The notes below the pieces were generated by a model that searched no databases, was not told the DNA's origin, and was given only the letters and a program-made list of their open reading frames with translations. From Parabacteroides sp. An277 (GTDB lineage Bacteria > Bacteroidota > Bacteroidia > Bacteroidales > Tannerellaceae), in the NCBI RefSeq assembly GCF_002159645.1, contig NZ_NFJB01000011.1, positions 1-64,000 of the forward strand: 64,000 nucleotides of DNA, in the 5' to 3' direction. Shown here piece after piece: positions 5,727 to 22,313 of the stretch; the first letter of the stretch is position 1, and every line of letters begins with the position of its first letter. Made by a program: the position numbers and the translations under genes.

Positions 5727-6713
5727 ATGATAGAGCGAATATACATTCTTGAGACGGTAGACCCGGTGATATTCTACGGTGTGAACAACAGTAACATGCA
5801 ATTGATTAAGACGTTGTTCCCGAAGCTTCGCATCGTCGCGCGTGGCAATGTAATGAAAGTCATCGGAGATGAAGAGGAGTCTGAACTGTTTTTAAAGAAG
5901 ATTCGTGAAATAGAAAAGTATTGCGAAGAGTATAACACACTATCTGAAGAGGTTATCATCGATATCATTAAAGGCAAAGGCCCGGCGGTGGTAAAGCAGG
6001 AGAACCTGATTATCCATGGCATGAATGGCAAGCCCATCACCGCCCGCACCGAAAACCAGCAGAAGTTGGTCAAGGCATTCGACGAGAACGACCTGGTATT
6101 TGCCACCGGTCCGGCCGGTTCGGGAAAAACGTTCGTAGCCATTGCCCTTGCGGTAAAAGCGTTGAAGAATAAACAAGTACGGAAAATTATCCTGAGTCGT
6201 CCGGCCGTAGAAGCAGGCGAGAAGTTAGGATTCCTCCCGGGCGAGATGAAAGACAAGCTCGACCCTTACTTGCAACCGCTCTACGATGCCTTGCAAGATA
6301 TGATTCCGGCCGTGAAATTGAAAGAATATATGGAGAATAATGTCATCCAAATAGCCCCTTTGGCCTTCATGCGTGGACGGACATTGAACGACGCGGTGAT
6401 TATCCTTGACGAAGCGCAGAATACGACTACCCATCAAATCAAAATGTTCCTCACCCGGTTGGGCATGAACGCGAAGATGATCGTAACGGGCGACATGACG
6501 CAAATAGACCTTCCCGCTTCGACCATCTCTGGTTTGAAAGAAGCAATGAGCATTTTGAAAGAGGTAGATGGCATCGGACGTGTGGAATTCACCAAGAAAG
6601 ATATCGTCCGACATAAGTTAGTGCAACGCATTGTGGAAGCATACGATAAGTTTGACCGGAAGCAACGCGCCACAAAGAAAGAATCAAATACTCAAATAAA
6701 AGAAGATAAATAA
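5727..6713 (+). CDS. PhoH family ATPase
   Basis: A protein of 328 residues. Residues 1-100 form the small N-terminal domain seen in PhoH/YbeZ proteins. The P-loop GPAGSGKT is at 128-135 and the Walker B segment [10 protein letters not shown] at 224-233, in a helicase-like fold. PhoH proteins are cytosolic ATPases linked to RNA processing and ribosome maturation; the exact substrate is not settled. It is first in a five-gene co-oriented run, with only 4 nt to purC. ATG at 5727 follows a TAATTTTG -7 box at 5691-5698. Confidence 0.92.
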
Positions 6714-6717
6714 GATT

Positions 6718-7668
6718 ATGAAAGCAGCATTAGTAAAGACAGATTTCCACTTTCCGGGTCAGGAGAGCGTTTATCATGGGAAAGTACGTGATGTGTATTC
6801 GATAAAGGATAACTTATTGGTCATGGTGGCTACCGACCGCATCTCGGCATTTGATGTCATTTTGCCGGAAGGTATTCCTTATAAAGGACAAATGTTAAAC
6901 CAAATTGCCGCTAAATTCCTGGATGCCACGACAGATATCTGCCCGAATTGGAAACTGGCTTCGCCCGACCCGATGGTTACAGTAGGCGTACGATGCGAAG
7001 GTTTCCCAGTCGAAATGATTGTACGCGGTTATCTTTGCGGAAGCGCTTGGCGTGCTTATAAGAGTGGGGTACGTGAAATCTGTGGCGTGAAGCTTCCGGA
7101 AGGCATGCGCGAAAACGAACGCTTCCCCGAACCGATTATCACGCCTACGACAAAAGCCGAGATTGGCGAGCACGACCAGGATATCTCGAAAGAAGAAATC
7201 TTGGCTCGCGGATTAGCTACGCCTGAAGAATATGCCCTGTTAGAGAAATACACAATGGCACTCTTCAAGCGGGGTACGGAAATCGCTGAGAAACGTGGGT
7301 TGATTCTCGTAGATACCAAATATGAATTCGGTAAGCACAACGGGCAAATTTATCTGATGGACGAAATCCACACACCCGACTCTTCGCGTTATTTCTACCT
7401 CGAAGGTTACGAAGAACGATTTGCCAAAGGAGAACCCCAGAAACAACTCTCGAAAGAGTTTGTACGTGAATGGTTGATGGAAAACGGTTTCCAAGGAAAA
7501 GAAGGGCAACAAGTACCTGAAATGACTCCCGAAATCGTAGAAAATATCAGTAACCGCTATATCGAATTGTTCGAACACATCACGGGCGAATCGTTTGTTA
7601 AAGCAGATACCTCGCACATTGCCGAACGTATCGAGAAGAATGTAACTGAATACTTGAATACATTATAA
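6718..7668 (+). CDS. purC: Phosphoribosylaminoimidazole-succinocarboxamide synthase
   Basis: A 316-residue SAICAR synthetase that joins aspartate to CAIR in purine synthesis using [12 protein letters not shown] near residue 21, [21 protein letters not shown] and [10 protein letters not shown] are hallmark segments. The length fits the longer Bacteroidetes/eukaryote-like form rather than the ~240-residue E. coli form. It follows the phoH-family gene by 4 nt and precedes menG by 22 nt, so it is almost certainly co-transcribed. There is no sign of a purine riboswitch. Confidence 0.97.
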
Positions 7669-7690
7669 TTATTCTAATAAGAAGTAACGC

Positions 7691-8428
7691 ATGGGTATAG
7701 GTTCAGAAAATGTACTCCCTTACAATCAGGAAGAGCATAAAGGCACACAAGTGAAACGTATGTTCGATGCCATCGCGGGAAAATACGATTTGCTGAACCA
7801 TACGCTCTCATTTGGCTTCGACAAAGGATGGCGCAGGAAGGGAATTCGTTTCCTGCGCCCTTTTTCTCCGAAACAGCTATTAGACATAGCCACAGGAACG
7901 GGAGATTTGGCTTTGCAAATGCAACGTGAACTGGTTCCGGAGCATATCACAGGCGTAGATATATCGGAAGGTATGATGGAAGTAGGAAGAAACAAAGTAC
8001 GTCAAGCCGGATTATCGGAATACATTACTTTCGAGTACCAGGATTGCATGAATTTAACGTATGAAGATAACCGTTTCGATGCTGTTACTGCAGCTTTTGG
8101 TGTACGAAACTTCGAGCATATCGAACAAGGACTGGCCGAGATGTATCGTGTAACGAAACCGGGTGGCCAAGTAATGATATTGGAGTTATCTACACCCGAA
8201 CGTTTTCCCATGAAACAACTTTATGCGTTATACTCCCGTATCGTCATCCCAACTATCGGACGGTGGATATCTCGGGAAAAGGCTGCTTATAGCTATTTGC
8301 CCGCTTCTATACAAGTAGTTCCACAGGGTAAGGTGATGAGAGGATTACTCTCGAAGGTTGGTTATCGAGAGGTACAATCCCAGTCGCTTACCTTTGGAAT
8401 ATGTTCGTTGTACACAGGTATTAAATAA
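7691..8428 (+). CDS. menG: Demethylmenaquinone methyltransferase
   Basis: A class I SAM methyltransferase of 245 residues of the UbiE/MenG family. It shows FGFDKGWR, the SAM-binding LLDIATGTGDLALQM, ITGVDISEGMM and FDAVTAAFGVRNF. It performs the last step of menaquinone synthesis, C-methylation of demethylmenaquinone at the inner membrane. Bacteroidales respire with menaquinone, so MenG is preferred over UbiE. Third gene of the operon, with 22-24 nt gaps on both sides. Confidence 0.95.
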   Translation: MGIGSENVLPYNQEEHKGTQVKRMFDAIAGKYDLLNHTLSFGFDKGWRRKGIRFLRPFSPKQLLDIATGTGDLALQMQRELVPEHITGVDISEGMMEVGRNKVRQAGLSEYITFEYQDCMNLTYEDNRFDAVTAAFGVRNFEHIEQGLAEMYRVTKPGGQVMILELSTPERFPMKQLYALYSRIVIPTIGRWISREKAAYSYLPASIQVVPQGKVMRGLLSKVGYREVQSQSLTFGICSLYTGIK

Positions 8429-8452
8429 ATCAGAGATTAAAGTATAAGTATT

Positions 8453-9199
8453 ATGCAAAAATACGGTTTGATAGGCTATCCGTTAGGGCACTCGTTCTCT
8501 CGCAATTATTTCAACCAAAAGTTTGAATCGGAGAATATTGACGCCCAGTATTTGAACTTTGAAATTCCCTCGATCAAGGATTTTAAAGAGGTTTTGAAAG
8601 AGAATCCTGAACTGAATGGATTGAACGTCACGATCCCCTACAAAGAACAAGTTATACCCTATTTGGACGACCTTGATGAAGATGCACGACAGATAGGAGC
8701 CGTCAATGTTATCAAGTTCACCAAAGGATTATTCGGAAAGACCAAATTAATAGGATATAACTCAGATGTCATTGGTTTCAAGCAATCTATCGAACCGTTG
8801 CTTACCGAAACACACCGTAAAGCATTAGTGTTGGGCACAGGTGGAGCTTCTAAAGCGGTTGTATATGGATTGAAGCAATTGGGGATAGAATCCACATTGG
8901 TTTCCCGAACAAAGAAAAGTGGATGTTTTACGTATGCAGAACTTACTCCTGAAATCATGGCTGAATATACCGTCATTGTAAATACGACTCCATTAGGTAT
9001 GTTTCCCCACGTAGACGCTTGTCCGGATATTCCGTATGCCTGCCTTACACCTTTCCATCTCCTTTACGATTTATTATACAACCCAGATACGACACTTTTC
9101 ATGCGAAAAGGACAAGAGCATGGCGCAATTGTAAAAAATGGATTGGAGATGTTACTCCTTCAAGCTTTTGCTGCTTGGGGTATATGGCAAAACGCATAA
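8453..9199 (+). CDS. aroE: Shikimate dehydrogenase
   Basis: A protein of 248 residues, on the short side for AroE (about 270). The substrate-binding GYPLGHSFSRNYFN is at the N-terminus and NVTIPYKE contains the catalytic lysine. VLGTGGASKAV is the nucleotide-binding loop, and NTTPLGMFP is typical of the family. It reduces 3-dehydroshikimate in the pathway to aromatic amino acids and chorismate, which also supplies menaquinone, so sitting beside menG makes metabolic sense. A gap of 12 nt separates it from the next gene. Confidence 0.95.
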   Translation: MQKYGLIGYPLGHSFSRNYFNQKFESENIDAQYLNFEIPSIKDFKEVLKENPELNGLNVTIPYKEQVIPYLDDLDEDARQIGAVNVIKFTKGLFGKTKLIGYNSDVIGFKQSIEPLLTETHRKALVLGTGGASKAVVYGLKQLGIESTLVSRTKKSGCFTYAELTPEIMAEYTVIVNTTPLGMFPHVDACPDIPYACLTPFHLLYDLLYNPDTTLFMRKGQEHGAIVKNGLEMLLLQAFAAWGIWQNA

Positions 9200-9211
9200 T
9201 CTCACGATAGA

Positions 9212-9823
9212 ATGATAGACTTCATTACGTTGTGCGATTATGTGGGGACTTTCGCTTTTGCCATTAGCGGAATTCGCCTGGCATCAGCCAAAAAGTTCGA
9301 TTGGTTTGGCGCTTACGTCGTAGGAATTGTGACAGCAGTCGGTGGTGGAACCATTCGCGACATTCTCTTAAATGCTACACCCTTCTGGATGACACAACCC
9401 TCTTATATGGTCATATCGGGATTAGCCCTTCTCTTTGTACTGGTATTTCGTAAGTATGTGATACGATTGAACAACACCTTTTTCATCTTTGACGCCGTAG
9501 GATTAGGTTTGTTTGCCATCGTAGGTATAGCCAAGTCCATTGAGTTTGGTTTTCCTTTTTGGGTAGCTATCGTTATGGGTACCATTACAGGTGCATTTGG
9601 TGGAATGATGCGAGATATTCTTATCAACGAGGAACCTCTCATTTTCCGAAAAGACATCTATGCATTGGCTTGCGTTTTCGGAGGGCTTGTATATTATGGA
9701 TGCGACCGTATGGGGGTTCCCTTGTCGCTTACACAGTTCATTGCGGCTGTAGCTGTTTTTATGGCTCGTGTCTTGGCGGTTAAATACCATATCAGTCTCC
9801 CGGCTTTAAAAGGAGAAGAATAA
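9212..9823 (+). CDS. Trimeric intracellular cation channel (TRIC/UPF0126) protein
   Basis: A membrane protein of 203 residues with seven hydrophobic segments. It carries two related glycine-rich repeats: AVGGGTIRDILL in the first half and AFGGMMRDILINEEP in the second. These are the paired UPF0126 domains of bacterial TRIC homologues, which form potassium-permeable trimers in the inner membrane. Last gene of the phoH-to-TRIC run, followed by a strong terminator. Its physiological role here is unknown. Confidence 0.88.
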   Translation: MIDFITLCDYVGTFAFAISGIRLASAKKFDWFGAYVVGIVTAVGGGTIRDILLNATPFWMTQPSYMVISGLALLFVLVFRKYVIRLNNTFFIFDAVGLGLFAIVGIAKSIEFGFPFWVAIVMGTITGAFGGMMRDILINEEPLIFRKDIYALACVFGGLVYYGCDRMGVPLSLTQFIAAVAVFMARVLAVKYHISLPALKGEE

Positions 9824-9860
9824 TTACGATTTTCTTTTTTCATTTTGTATATATACCTCT

Positions 9861-9910
9861 GGGCTGGATGCTATTGACGGGGAGTCAATAACTTTCCAGC
9901 CCTCCTTTTT
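9861..9910 (+). terminator. Intrinsic terminator of the phoH-TRIC operon
   Basis: GGGCTGGA (9861-9868) pairs with TCCAGCCC (9895-9902). An inner ATTGAC/GTCAAT stem closes on a GGGGA loop. The stem is followed by TCCTTTTT. Strong and clearly placed 38 nt after the stop. Confidence 0.88.
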
Positions 9911-9981
9911 CATCTTAACAAAGAAAACAAACGAAGCTCTTAAAGAGAGGGAAAAGTATCCCGCCGACAGAGAGTTTGCAC

Positions 9982-10026
9982 AAAAAAAGAATCGCCTGGG
10001 AAACTCGTTTATTTCCCAAACGATTC
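9982..10026 (-). terminator. Intrinsic terminator of the threonine dehydrogenase gene
   Basis: Read on the minus strand, GAATCG (10026-10021) and GGGAAA pair with TTTCCC and CGATTC, followed by TTTTTTT. It overlaps the 22-bp array at 10000-10065. Confidence 0.8.
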
Positions 10027-14583: not shown

Positions 14584-14654
14584 TTTCTTTCTTTATGTTA
14601 TAAATAGGTATAACCGTTCACGTTTTTATCTCTAAATGCCATTGCCGAGGCTTA

Positions 14655-14960
14655 CCCGCTTGCGGGAAATCCTTTTGACGCGCCTCAATGACCTCACCCG
14701 CTTGCGGGTATCCCTTTTGACGCGCCTCAATGACCTCACCCGCTTGCGGGTATCCCTTTTGACGCACCTCAAAGACCTCACCCGCTTGCGGGAAATCCTT
14801 TTGACACGCCTCAAAGACCTCGCCCGCTTGCGGGAAACCCTTTTGACGCGCTTCAAAGACCTCGCCCGCTTGCGGGAAATCCTTTTGACGCGCCTCAAAG
14901 ACCTCGCCCGCTTGCGGGAAACCCTTTTGACACGCTTCAAAGACCTCGCCCGCTTGCGGG
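14655..14960. repeat. 42-bp palindromic tandem array, 8 units
   Basis: The perfect palindrome CCCGCTTGCGGG starts at 14655, 14697, 14739, 14781, 14823, 14865, 14907 and 14949, exactly 42 bp apart. The 30-bp linkers are also repeated with scattered substitutions, so it is not a CRISPR. The last unit ends four bases before the stop codon of the SDR gene. It occupies nearly all of the 381-bp gap to sdaA; the remaining ~70 bases upstream of sdaA show nothing clear. Confidence 0.95.
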
Positions 14961-14964
14961 TAAA

Positions 14965-15813
14965 CTAAAAAACATACCCTCGTTGGGAAAGAAGGGCCTC
15001 CGTATCGTTCCAAAGCGACTTCATCTGCGGATGCGCCAAATATTTGGGAGCCAAATGGCGCTGGCGGGAGGAGGCGAACATCTGTCCGGTCGTTCCGTCG
15101 GGCAAATCGTCGACAAGGAGATGCACGGCCGTGGCCGCACCCTGTTTCGGTGTCCGGATAAAGGGACGGAAAAGGATATCGGTCAGCGGGTCGAACCACA
15201 TGTGCATCGTGATGATGCCTGTCGAAACGATGCCCGGGTCGGCCGCATTCACGAGAATGCCCCGCTCGCGCACCCGGCTGGCCAACTCGCGGACGAACAG
15301 CCAGAGCGCCAACTTCGTATGGCTATAAATCGGGATGCGCCAGAAGGAACCCCGCCTGCCGCGCGTGAAGAACTCGGGCGTGATGCGGCCGATGGCATAC
15401 GTGCACGAGACCATGCAAACCACGCGCGACCCCTTGCCCATGAGCGGGAGCAACCGGCGCGTGAGCAGGTAAGGCGCGACGTAATTGACCGCCACCGTGC
15501 GCTCCAGCCCATCTTCCGTCTGTTCGAAATGGGTACACATCGTGCCGGCATTGTTCATCAGCAACGCGATGGGCACGTTTTCTTGCAAAAGGGAAGCCGC
15601 AACGGCCTCCACGGATTTCATCCGCGAAAGGTCCACCTCGCGCACAGAAATCTCGCTACATTCCGTCTCGCGCACGGCCTGCTCCTTACGTTTCTCACCC
15701 GCCGCGGCATCGAGGCAGAGCATGACGACCTCATAACCCGCCAACGCAACCGCCTTGGTGATTTCAAACCCCATGCCGCCGTCGGCACCCGTGATGACCG
15801 CACGCCCTTTCAT
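14965..15813 (-). CDS. SDR oxidoreductase, predicted 3-beta-hydroxysteroid dehydrogenase
   Basis: A short-chain dehydrogenase of 282 residues with the cofactor loop TGADGGMG (8-15), NNAG (87-90), and a complete Asn110-Ser136-Tyr163-Lys167 tetrad (YSHTK). It is closest in feel to retinol dehydrogenase-like SDRs. The start overlaps the stop of the flavin reductase by four bases (ATGA). Its place in one operon with an old yellow enzyme and a steroid 5-alpha-reductase matches the cluster described in gut Bacteroidota for conversion of 3-oxo bile acids to isoallo forms. A 3-beta-HSDH role is therefore the best inference, resting on context. Confidence 0.7.
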   Translation of the reverse strand: MKGRAVITGADGGMGFEITKAVALAGYEVVMLCLDAAAGEKRKEQAVRETECSEISVREVDLSRMKSVEAVAASLLQENVPIALLMNNAGTMCTHFEQTEDGLERTVAVNYVAPYLLTRRLLPLMGKGSRVVCMVSCTYAIGRITPEFFTRGRRGSFWRIPIYSHTKLALWLFVRELASRVRERGILVNAADPGIVSTGIITMHMWFDPLTDILFRPFIRTPKQGAATAVHLLVDDLPDGTTGQMFASSRQRHLAPKYLAHPQMKSLWNDTEALLSQRGYVF

Positions 15814-17042
15814 GACTGGGCCTCCTTTTCCAATCGTTCGATTTCCTTTTCCAACGAACGGGGCAACGGGCGACGGAGACGTTTATGGCACGCCATGTCG
15901 AGGGTATACATCCGGGCGATGCAATAGTTGCTATGCCCACAATCGCACCGGCAGGTCTCCGATTCGCGCATCCGGTTGACGAAGTCCGGCGTGTTGAGCA
16001 GGGCGCGTCCCATCTGTACGAAGGGGAAACCCAGGTTCAACACCTCGTCAATCTTCTCCCGCGAGACCAATCCACCCACATACACCAAGGGAATATCCTT
16101 CACCTCGTCGCGGAAACGCAAGGCATCCTCCAAGAAATAGGCCTCCTTGAACGGCACAGTCGGAATCATGTATTTCCCCGCCATGCGCACGCCCCATTTG
16201 AGCCACCAACAATCCATATAATGCGTCATCGTCTTGATAGGCATCTCGCCCCGCATGACGTACATCGGCGCCTTGCTCACAAACCCACCACTCAAGACCA
16301 ACGCATGGGCGCCGTCTTCCTTCAGACGCTTTGCCACTTCGAGGCACTCGTCGATTTCCATACCGCCTTTGAATCCATCGCGCATGTTCATTTTCACAAG
16401 GACTGCCATATCATTCCCAGCCGCCTTCATGACTTCGTCCATGCACATGTCCATGAAGCGCATCCGGTTCTCCAACGAGCCGCCAAACTCATCCTTGCGG
16501 TGATTCGTGTAGGGCGAAAGGAATTGGCTAATCAAATAACCATGCCCCGCGTGGATTTCGACCGCATCAAAACCCGCCTCGCGCGCCAAACGGACAGATT
16601 TCCCGTAAGCTTTCGCCATTTCAGGCAACTCCTCGCGGCGCAAACCACGGACGAACGTAGGCGAGTAAAGATTGAAACCCGACGACGCGCCGACGGGCGT
16701 CTCTCCACATATCGCTTTATGTGACATATTCCCACAATGTCCCAATTGGATGCTCGCTGCCGCTCCCTCCTTATGGATGGCATTCGTGATAGTTAGCAAA
16801 CCGGGGACAATCTCTGGCCGCATCCAAAGCTGGCGGTCGAAAGAAAGGCCGCTACGCGTCACAGCCGCATAGGCTATCGTAGTCATACCGACGCCCCCTG
16901 CGGCGACCGATTGATGATAATCCAAAAGTTGCTGTGAGGGCATATTCCCTGGACACATGCTCTCGAACGCCGCCGAGCGTATCGTCCGGTTGCGTATCGT
17001 AAGCGGACCAATCGTCCCGGGTGTAAATAGACAAGAATTCAT
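15810..17042 (-). CDS. Old yellow enzyme-type NADH:flavin oxidoreductase, predicted steroid 5-beta-reductase
   Basis: A protein of 410 residues: an FMN-binding TIM barrel with the active-site strand HAGHGYLISQFLSP (164-177). Near the C-terminus Cys364, 366, 368, 374 and 385 suggest an iron-sulfur cluster as in BaiCD/BaiH and dienoyl-CoA reductases. The C-terminal FAD/NAD domain of those enzymes is absent. The cysteine spacing differs from the usual C-x2-C-x3-C-x11-C. In the operon it would act as the delta4-3-ketosteroid 5-beta-reductase step, inferred from its neighbours. Two bases separate it from the upstream gene. Confidence 0.75.
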   Translation of the reverse strand: MNSCLFTPGTIGPLTIRNRTIRSAAFESMCPGNMPSQQLLDYHQSVAAGGVGMTTIAYAAVTRSGLSFDRQLWMRPEIVPGLLTITNAIHKEGAAASIQLGHCGNMSHKAICGETPVGASSGFNLYSPTFVRGLRREELPEMAKAYGKSVRLAREAGFDAVEIHAGHGYLISQFLSPYTNHRKDEFGGSLENRMRFMDMCMDEVMKAAGNDMAVLVKMNMRDGFKGGMEIDECLEVAKRLKEDGAHALVLSGGFVSKAPMYVMRGEMPIKTMTHYMDCWWLKWGVRMAGKYMIPTVPFKEAYFLEDALRFRDEVKDIPLVYVGGLVSREKIDEVLNLGFPFVQMGRALLNTPDFVNRMRESETCRCDCGHSNYCIARMYTLDMACHKRLRRPLPRSLEKEIERLEKEAQS

Positions 17043-17043
17043 A

Positions 17044-17808
17044 TCAAAATATATAAGGTATTAAACATTTTCGTTTTCCTACGGCTTCCCGCCCGAACTC
17101 CTCTCGATATTTCCGACGAATGGCATAAGCTCGTGGCGCCAAATTGGCAAAAGTCCACCACACGAATACCCAAGCGGCAGGTGAGGCGGTCAAAAGGGCA
17201 AACCCTGTCCATTCAACCAGTTCCCCGAAGTAATTCCCCGACGTCACCCAACGATACATGCCTTTCTGCGGAAGATAATGCCGCGTATCGCCCGGCTTAC
17301 GCAAATGACGGATTACATAATCGGAATGCCAATTGATACCCATTCCTACAAAGAAAAGCACCAACCCGACCCAATATGCCGGACGGTAGATGAACGCCTC
17401 ATCATAAAAACCATCTGGAGCAAGATAAAACAACCATTCGCCCTGAATATAGCCATTCAGCAAATTAAATACAACTCCCATCAAGAGAATCGCCACCGGC
17501 ATCCGGCTCTTTCCCTTCAGCAAGAGCGGAAAGACGAACGAACGTTGGAAATAATGCAACTCGAAAAGCAGAAAAAAAAGGAAAGGAAGCCCCTTCGCCC
17601 CTGTCCCACTCTGCCACCAAAGCGCCCACATCACAAAAAAAACGGGTGCTTCCATGCACACCCAGCCTATCTTGTTCGGTACCGATACGCCCCATTGCCT
17701 CGTACGGAACATGCCATATCCCGCCTTGATGAAGAAAAGCGCGACAAACACCACCAGCCCCAAGGCAGAAAAAGCGATTAATATCCAATTAAAAAATTCC
17801 AAACTCAT
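17044..17808 (-). CDS. 3-oxo-5-alpha-steroid 4-dehydrogenase (steroid 5-alpha-reductase) family
   Basis: A membrane protein of 254 residues with six or seven helices. HYFQRSFVFP is at 85-94 and NYFGELVEW at 192-200, followed by FANLAPRAYAIRRKYREEF and the end KCLIPYIF. This is the C-terminal signature of steroid 5-alpha-reductases, where the NYFGE segment contacts NADPH and substrate. It would saturate the delta4 bond of 3-oxo steroids or bile acids to the 5-alpha form. First gene of a three-gene operon with reductase and SDR; a TACTTTTG -7 box lies at 17838-17845 on the minus strand. Acting on gut bile acids is inference. Confidence 0.85.
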   Translation of the reverse strand: MSLEFFNWILIAFSALGLVVFVALFFIKAGYGMFRTRQWGVSVPNKIGWVCMEAPVFFVMWALWWQSGTGAKGLPFLFFLLFELHYFQRSFVFPLLLKGKSRMPVAILLMGVVFNLLNGYIQGEWLFYLAPDGFYDEAFIYRPAYWVGLVLFFVGMGINWHSDYVIRHLRKPGDTRHYLPQKGMYRWVTSGNYFGELVEWTGFALLTASPAAWVFVWWTFANLAPRAYAIRRKYREEFGREAVGKRKCLIPYIF

Positions 17809-20429: not shown

Positions 20430-20675
20430 ACATACCTAATATAGATGCTTACCGGAAGGTAATATAGGTGTCGCCATCCCTCCAAGCAATTCATTACCCT
20501 TCCCCGCGTTACCCCTTCCCCATACCCTGCAGTGGCGGCCCGCTACCCCCTGCCTTGAGCCGTTCCCGCCCCCTACCGTGGGGCATTTCGTCTGTCTTTT
20601 TAGCTTTTTTGTCGATAATCTCTTTCAGGAATGGAAAAGGTTATGTATTATTGCGACCAAAAATTAAATAGGCAT
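20430..20675. other. Intergenic stretch, C-rich, no gene seen
   Basis: The stretch holds a TTACC/GGTAA hairpin near 20451 and a C-rich run with degenerate TTACCCCTTCCCC-like repeats (about 20490-20580). No convincing RNA gene and no well-spaced promoter was found. It is the leader of the M64 peptidase gene. Confidence 0.5.
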
Positions 20676-22313
20676 ATGATGAAGATAAAACAGATACTCT
20701 CGTCCCTTCTCTTCGTGTGGCTGGCCGTGTCTTGCGCAGAAGAGACCCCCTATATCGACATGGACCAAACGGAACAGGCAGAAGTGACCCTCGGCTCGAC
20801 GGAATCGTCGTCGGAAACCTTCACCTTCTCGACCAACCAAACCTGGAGCGCGAGCGACGATGCAGACTGGCTTACCGTCTCTCCTACTTCGGGAGGCGAA
20901 GGGAACAATACCCTGACCCTAACGGCCGAGAAAGAGAACCGAACGGGTAAGGCGCGCACGGCTACCCTTACCCTGACGACAGCCACGCTCGAACAGGAGA
21001 TACAAATCACCCAAGAGGCCGGACGGTATATCCAACTGGAAGAGGACACCATCCGGGTAAGTAGAGAGGGGGGCGACATCCAAGTATACTTCACCACGGA
21101 AATGATTGAGGATGAATATGCTATTTACCGAACGGGGCGTTGGCTCACGCAAGAGGGGCAATCGACCCGCAGCACCTATACGGCTTATGTGCCGCTAACG
21201 GTACTTCCCAACACAGGAGAACAGAGCCGCATGGCGTATCTCATCTTTACCGCTGCAGGCGAAGGGGCAGATGGAGACCCGTTTGCAACGGCCGTCATCG
21301 TGCAAGAGGGATTGCTCTCCAGTTACGAATCGACGGACTATTCAGCCGATAAGACCGTACGCGTCTTGCAGGAAGCGACACGCGGTACAGGCATTCCGAT
21401 TGTCCTCATGGGCGATGGCTTTATAGATACAGAGATTGCCGACGGGACATACGATGAGGTGATGGACCAAGCCTACGCGAACCTCTTCTCGGAAGAGCCC
21501 ATTAGTTCGCTCCGCGATTACTTTGACGTCTATGCCGTAACGGCCGTTTCGCGAAACAGCGGTGTCGGGACATGGTACGATACGGTGTTCAGTACCTGGC
21601 TGGAAGGAGGCGGAAGCTCGCTGATTGAAGGCGACAATGAGGCCGTGAGAGAATATGTACAATGTGTGGAAGGCATTGATATAGACAACACGCTGGCCGT
21701 AGTCATCCCGAATACGACAGATTATGCCGGCACGACCTATTTCGGATATGGCACAATAGACAACATGACGGAATTTGCCATCGCTTATTGCCCTATTATC
21801 AACGGTATCAGCAGCGAACTCTTCCGCACGGTCCTTTGCCACGAAGCGATTGGACATGGGTTCGGGAAGTTGAACGACGAATATGCGTATGAAGGCACTA
21901 TGCCCAGCAATGAAATAGAAGAGGCTCAAACCATGCAGACAATAGGATGGTACCAGAACGTGGACTTCACAGACGATACGAATACCGTGCTTTGGTCTGC
22001 CTTTCTCTCCGACTCGCGTTATGCCAACGAAGATGTAGGCATCTACGAAGGAGCCTGTACCTATTCCCACGGCGCTTACCGCCCTTCGGATGAGAGTATC
22101 ATGAACAGCAATATCCTTGGATTCAACGCCCCTTCACGCCAAGCCCTTTACAATAAAGTAATGAAGTTGGGCGAAGGAAGAGAGGCTACATACGAAGAGT
22201 TCGTCTCCTTCGACAGTCCGGAGACACAGACAACAACCCGCGCTACCACGATATCAGCAGACTTCCGTCCGTTCCACGCGCCTCAGTTCGTGAACCGTCC
22301 GCTCAAACCCTAA
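20676..22313 (+). CDS. Secreted lipoprotein: BACON domains plus M64 (IgA peptidase-like) metallopeptidase
   Basis: A protein of 545 residues from ATG 20676. A lipoprotein signal (LLFVWLAVSC, cleavage before Cys) sends it to the envelope. Two BACON-like beta domains occupy about residues 30-115 and 118-213. The peptidase M64 domain follows, starting near GIPIVLMGDGF, with the zinc motif HEAIGHGFGKLNDEY at about 389-403. Family members cleave host glycoproteins such as IgA hinge or mucin-type targets; the substrate here is unknown. The frame begins at 20631, but that start would place charged residues ahead of the signal peptide, so 20676 is preferred. Confidence 0.88.
   Translation: MMKIKQILSSLLFVWLAVSCAEETPYIDMDQTEQAEVTLGSTESSSETFTFSTNQTWSASDDADWLTVSPTSGGEGNNTLTLTAEKENRTGKARTATLTLTTATLEQEIQITQEAGRYIQLEEDTIRVSREGGDIQVYFTTEMIEDEYAIYRTGRWLTQEGQSTRSTYTAYVPLTVLPNTGEQSRMAYLIFTAAGEGADGDPFATAVIVQEGLLSSYESTDYSADKTVRVLQEATRGTGIPIVLMGDGFIDTEIADGTYDEVMDQAYANLFSEEPISSLRDYFDVYAVTAVSRNSGVGTWYDTVFSTWLEGGGSSLIEGDNEAVREYVQCVEGIDIDNTLAVVIPNTTDYAGTTYFGYGTIDNMTEFAIAYCPIINGISSELFRTVLCHEAIGHGFGKLNDEYAYEGTMPSNEIEEAQTMQTIGWYQNVDFTDDTNTVLWSAFLSDSRYANEDVGIYEGACTYSHGAYRPSDESIMNSNILGFNAPSRQALYNKVMKLGEGREATYEEFVSFDSPETQTTTRATTISADFRPFHAPQFVNRPLKP

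Follow-up and report, generated by a model that had tools for sequence, protein, structure and literature searches.

We identified a three-gene operon on the minus strand, at positions 14965–17808 of a 64,000-nucleotide stretch of Parabacteroides sp. An277 DNA (the window), whose products very probably act on 3-oxo steroids or bile acids, converting the bent (5-beta) A/B ring junction into the flat (5-alpha) one. Judged by its sequence, the trio is the orthologue of the cluster reported for Parabacteroides merdae; this cluster and its pathway are already in print, as the reviews cited below indicate, and the window adds another copy. The kind of cluster being known, the part worth following is a modular pattern in the genus. 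Our proposal for it is tentative, held at a little under even confidence: a core flavoprotein gene (5BR) would be combined either with one short-chain dehydrogenase/reductase (SDR-B) without a neighbouring 5-alpha-reductase (5AR), giving 5-beta chemistry only, or with another, unrelated to the first (SDR-A), together with 5AR, giving isoallo products. The 5AR and SDR-A set would have been assembled at least twice in Parabacteroides, at a serine dehydratase site, where the clade of the window carries a Bacteroides/Phocaeicola-like trio, and at an rplY site, where in P. merdae SDR-B would have been exchanged for 5AR and SDR-A beside a resident 5BR and an efflux pump.

Organization of the operon

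Three complete, adjacent and co-directional ORFs in the order 5AR–5BR–SDR occupy the interval. Gene 1 (17044–17808, minus strand, 254 aa) encodes 5AR, a member of the steroid 5-alpha-reductase family (SRD5A-like; Pfam Steroid_dh, PF02544, 6e-38); gene 2 (15810–17042, minus strand, 410 aa) encodes a short old-yellow-enzyme flavoprotein of the 5BR type (Oxidored_FMN, PF00724, 4e-51); and gene 3 (14965–15813, minus strand, 282 aa) encodes SDR-A, a putative 3-beta-hydroxysteroid dehydrogenase (adh_short, PF00106, 1e-25). The ORFs and profiles bear out the tightly packed, one-strand gene set described in the first-pass annotation, as well as its 4-nt overlap, the 5BR stop and the SDR start overlapping within TCATGA. 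The first gap, given there as 2 nt, is 1 nt (position 17043), as direct reading of the junction (TTTTGA-T-ATG) indicated. The genome containing the window is 3.68 Mb in size and 99.8% complete. A single CBAH-family (PF02275) protein is encoded in it; this family comprises bile salt hydrolases and penicillin acylases.

Two further features of the window were recorded. A tandem array with a 42-bp unit lies at 14654–14965 (7.4 copies, 92% matches), its end coinciding with the SDR stop codon; the unit contains CCCGCTTGCGGG, a short hairpin, and the same program found no array of this type in bases 7000–10000 of the close relative L001. The protein encoded at 20631–22313 of the window is 560 aa long and contains a BACON domain and an M64 domain, the latter of the IgA peptidase family.

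Conserved residues and family assignment of the products

The 5AR protein scored 130.5 bits against PF02544 (cut-off 22.6), which places it in this family, and aligned over most of its length with the PDB entries 7c83 (7.5e-53) and 7bw1 (3e-38). The residues at the positions of human SRD5A2 E57, Y91, N160, D164, N193 and E197 were invariant in 93/93 aligned rows. Unrelated best homologues, which would have spoken against the annotation, were not what we found, since 5AR matched both bacterial and human steroid 5-alpha-reductase structures.

In the 5BR protein, H164, H167 and Y169, presumably a YqjM-type active site, were present in all of the 109 aligned rows. The C-terminal cysteines that had been pointed out in this old-yellow-enzyme protein were likewise conserved (C368, C374 and C385 in 109/109 rows, C366 in 105/109), and the four together form a possible iron–sulphur site of unusual spacing. 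The best NCBIfam profile was BaiCD (NF041087), yet 5BR reached 187 bits where the cut-off is 825, which leaves it outside that family.

The catalytic tetrad of SDR-A, described as complete in the first-pass annotation, was indeed so: N110, S136, Y163 and K167, the classical SDR tetrad, were each invariant in 94/94 aligned rows. The top NCBIfam profiles of this protein were general oxidoreductases, and the P. merdae SDR had the identical top three. SDR-B is a distinct SDR, with 24% identity to SDR-A; it matched generic SDRs only in NCBIfam and PDB, and no close copy of it was found in the window genome or in the same-genus genome G015, where the best matches were of 31% and 29%, respectively.

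Relation to the P. merdae cluster

The 5AR–5BR–3betaHSDH cluster of P. merdae and Odoribacteraceae is reportedly that of Sato 2021. A protein of G015 aligned over approximately residues 19–826 with PDB 6d7j/6dxu with no visible mismatch; we take these entries to be P. merdae beta-glucuronidase, and G015 was named as P. merdae on this basis. A title matching the P. merdae beta-glucuronidase entry is present in the reference list of PMC12789469. Of three G015 glycosidase ORFs compared with the PDB, one gave this match and the other two proved not to be the marker. The comparison with P. merdae proteins that the first-pass annotation had called for was made with G015, and the three genes, their order and their homology agreed. 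The G015 trio is collinear with that of the window, with identities of 58% (5AR), 76% (5BR) and 55% (SDR) over 254, 404 and 281 aligned columns, homology running along the length of each protein, and the claimed match to the P. merdae cluster was upheld. The P. vulgatus copy was nearer to that of the window than the P. merdae copy (5AR 71%, 5BR 85%, SDR 65%).

According to the review PMC10382948, isoalloLCA is formed from 3-oxo-delta4-LCA by P. merdae, Odoribacter laneus and Bacteroides dorei, and alloLCA derivatives are no longer made when the P. merdae 5AR is disrupted; the neighbours of 5AR in its cluster are a predicted 3beta-HSDH and a BaiCD/BaiH-like flavoenzyme hypothesised to be the 5beta-reductase. 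PMC10672800 gives the order of steps from 3-oxoLCA to isoalloLCA as 5BR, 5AR and 3beta-HSDH, and reports that eleven genera, some distant from Bacteroidota, form isoalloLCA from 3-oxoLCA; therefore, the cluster is not the sole route. In a review table of PMC12692668, H. hathewayi and Lachnospiraceae are the only entries for 5-beta-reductase, with none for Bacteroidota.

Distribution of the trio

In the genome collection, 317 stretches encode a relative of 5BR, and the best 80 were kept. Among these 80, the closest titled records to 5BR belonged to Parabacteroides (L001, 96%; L003, 86%) and P. faecalis (L002, 85%), with records of Bacteroides and Phocaeicola near behind (85–86%). Matches to 5AR and SDR-A were also present in 77 of the 80, including four in which the SDR match was 47–48% and 2–5 kb distant (L016, L033, L042 and L043) and one in which the 5AR match was split in two pieces (L006). 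The remaining three were L014, without SDR, and L046 and L064, which begin within 140 bases of the 5BR gene and are therefore unable to show 5AR. The co-occurrence of 5AR, 5BR and SDR is not a matter of chance. As a separate observation, the 5BR frame (match 6001–7227) contains an in-frame stop in both L059 and L066, which are records of uncultured Bacteroides.

Among 295 genomes of the order, including that of the window, 5AR was detected in 40 (at least 44% identity) and 5BR in 47 (at least 53%), thresholds that were chosen after the lists had been viewed. Both genes were present in 39 genomes, side by side in 34, and at these identities 5BR occurred without 5AR in eight; the sole genome with 5AR and without 5BR was G038, which has two 5AR copies.

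Two types of cassette in Parabacteroides

A 5BR match was present in 36 of 38 genomes of the genus (25/26 among the good ones), nearly full length in 32 of the 36 and partial or weak in four (G004, G025, G031 and G032), whereas 5AR was matched in only 20/38 (13/26 among the good ones). Isoallo formation therefore cannot be the sole role of 5BR, and the presence of 5BR in a Parabacteroides does not imply a capacity for isoalloLCA.

The cassette was typed at 30 of the 32 full-length loci of the genus. Sixteen had 5AR, 5BR and SDR-A, and twelve had 5BR and SDR-B, with no 5AR match anywhere in these twelve genomes. In the other two, 5BR and SDR-A stood without an adjacent 5AR: the genome of L092 has 5AR on another contig, and L102 has an in-frame stop in 5BR and shows no 5AR in its genome. 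A 5AR neighbour was thus found at 16/18 SDR-A loci and 0/12 SDR-B loci (Fisher p = 1e-6, a value that counts species and not events). On the 5BR tree, the pattern of SDR types needed only two changes, a count that omits rows without an SDR neighbour and one Prevotella row and comes from a quick tree with a long-branch warning. Beyond the 30 loci, G024 has 5AR adjoining 5BR, and G003 has SDR-B without 5AR. Outside the genus, SDR-B adjoined 5BR in five genomes (L192–L195 and L202); the four genomes of L192–L195 contain remote 5AR-family matches of 35–36% elsewhere, and that of L202 (G040) contains a 5AR-family match of 46%. No SDR-A or SDR-B neighbour was detected in L196–L201, six of the 12 stretches examined, one of which ends just past 5BR. 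The possibility that 5BR differs in function between the loci with SDR-A and those with SDR-B was considered and rejected, because just four positions, all conservative, had different residues fixed (each at 90% or more) in the 12 SDR-B rows and the 11 P. merdae-type rows. The alternation of SDR-A and SDR-B beside 5BR was not found in the literature searched, the reach of which did not extend to Sato 2021 and Li 2021.

Chromosomal sites and history of the cassettes

The window trio adjoins a serine dehydratase gene, as do those of G008 and G033 by sequence likeness, and does not occupy the P. merdae-type site before an rplY-like gene. At the rplY site of the window genome, G008 and G036, no such cassette was found, and a gene like that for a 301-aa protein adjoins rplY. 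A gene of 194–197 aa, which we take to be rplY, followed the cassette in all nine of the longer P. merdae/SDR-B-type stretches (L115–L117 and L168–L173). Upstream of the cassette, a transporter ORF of approximately 1040 aa, presumably of the RND type, was present in seven of the nine (L115–L117, L169–L171 and L173) and missing in L168 and L172; its position next to the 5BR cassette points to a connection with the export of bile acids or tolerance to them. In L172 (G009), the rplY site has 5BR and SDR-A without an adjacent 5AR, the 5AR of this genome being on another contig. In L117 (G004:C1:375000-391000), from a genome that we assume to be P. distasonis ATCC 8503, the transporter is 613 aa, cut at residue 609, and adjoins a 213-aa 5BR remnant corresponding to the last half (approximately residues 194–405), with SDR-B kept and 5AR absent.

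In an rpoB tree with ten outside rows (Bacteroides, Phocaeicola, Mediterranea, Caecibacteroides and Prevotella), the window genome fell in one starred clade with 18 other genomes of the genus. Grouping of the genus as a single unit gave p-AU values of 0.0017 for SDR-A and 0.0255 for 5AR, a rejection in both cases, whereas the value of 0.134 for 5BR did not reject it; the group was picked after the identities were known, and long branches are present in the trees of SDR and 5AR. On these values, a plain transfer of the whole operon into the window clade was dropped as a claim. On the 5BR tree, P. merdae-type SDR-A rows were interspersed with those of SDR-B, and the inner supports, 88–93, were under the star level. 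This mixing and the rejections for SDR-A and 5AR fit, without proving it, the addition of 5AR and SDR-A beside a resident 5BR in the P. merdae clade, where the two genes may have joined a 5BR already in place. That the window clade holds a Bacteroides/Phocaeicola-like trio at another site fits these results, without being proved by them. Both readings are weakened by the long branches and by the late choice of the group.

Proposed function and alternatives

We infer the substrate, reaction order, direction and stereochemistry of the trio as follows: 5BR would desaturate 3-oxoLCA to 3-oxo-delta4-LCA, or catalyse the reverse; 5AR would reduce 3-oxo-delta4-LCA to 3-oxoalloLCA; and the SDR would reduce the 3-ketone of 3-oxoalloLCA, yielding isoalloLCA. 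This bile-acid function is supported by orthology and collinearity with P. merdae, the reviews, the solved family to which 5AR belongs, the presence of 5BR in 39 of the 40 genomes with 5AR, and the CBAH-family protein. The wider occurrence of 5BR than of 5AR in the genus, the table of PMC12692668, the Ile at the H231 position and the lack of 5BR in G038 are points against it.

The same enzymes, unchanged, might have steroid hormones or dietary 3-keto-delta4 sterols as their main physiological substrates, and the match of 5AR to the human SRD5A2 structure and to a bacterial 3-oxo-5-alpha-steroid 4-dehydrogenase, together with the listing of Bacteroides and Parabacteroides strains among holders of androgen 5-alpha-reductase in the review PMC12789469, agrees with such a role. 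We regard it as unlikely, however, as the gene-level work on the cluster that was traced through PMC10382948 and PMC10672800 used bile acids, and the window genome encodes a CBAH-family protein. Still less probable in our estimate is that 5BR and its SDR form a general redox pair for other enones, to which 5AR came as a later arrival, the trio not being dedicated to bile acids. The 5BR and SDR-B loci without 5AR, 12 of 30 in the genus, and the pairs in the five genomes of other genera (L192–L195 and L202) speak for a general pair, but 5BR is nearly unchanged between contexts, differing at the four conservative positions, and the remote 5AR-family matches in the genomes of L192–L195 also argue against it. 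In addition, bile-acid 3alpha-/3beta-HSDH is reported in PMC13008668 for P. distasonis, which belongs with the SDR-B species provided that G004 is rightly named.

Under the favoured bile-acid function, the product would be isoalloLCA, which is reported to inhibit Clostridioides difficile (PMC10382948) and to promote regulatory T cells. If the modular reading is true, the type of cassette would predict which species make isoalloLCA; as the SDR type marks 5AR cassettes in the genus, it offers a simple marker by which producers could be predicted from sequence, and sister species with SDR-A and SDR-B provide a natural comparison for the product of each SDR.

Comparison with known systems

The window 5AR is homologous over most of its length to SRD5A2 (7bw1) and bacterial SRD5A (7c83), with the key residues retained. 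At the position of human H231, however, Ile is present in 93/93 aligned rows, and therefore the handling of substrate or cofactor may differ. The window 5BR shares the old-yellow-enzyme superfamily with the BaiCD and ci2350 5-beta-reductases of Firmicutes, but the long form is absent: the BaiCD model has 642 positions and the window protein 410 aa, which therefore leaves no room for the C-terminal part, presumably the FAD/NADH portion. It follows from this comparison that 5BR would have to obtain electrons without the FAD domain of BaiCD. In PMC12238238, two positions separate the hormone reductases (N, S) from the bile-acid reductases (Y or S, E); the window residues G168 and Q173, placed by an alignment made by eye only, are of neither type. 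The P. merdae/Odoribacteraceae cluster has the three families and their order in common with the window trio, while its 5BR stop and SDR start overlap by 1 nt, compared with 4 nt in the window, its chromosomal site, which does not define the function, is different, and it is more distant from the window trio than are the Phocaeicola copies.
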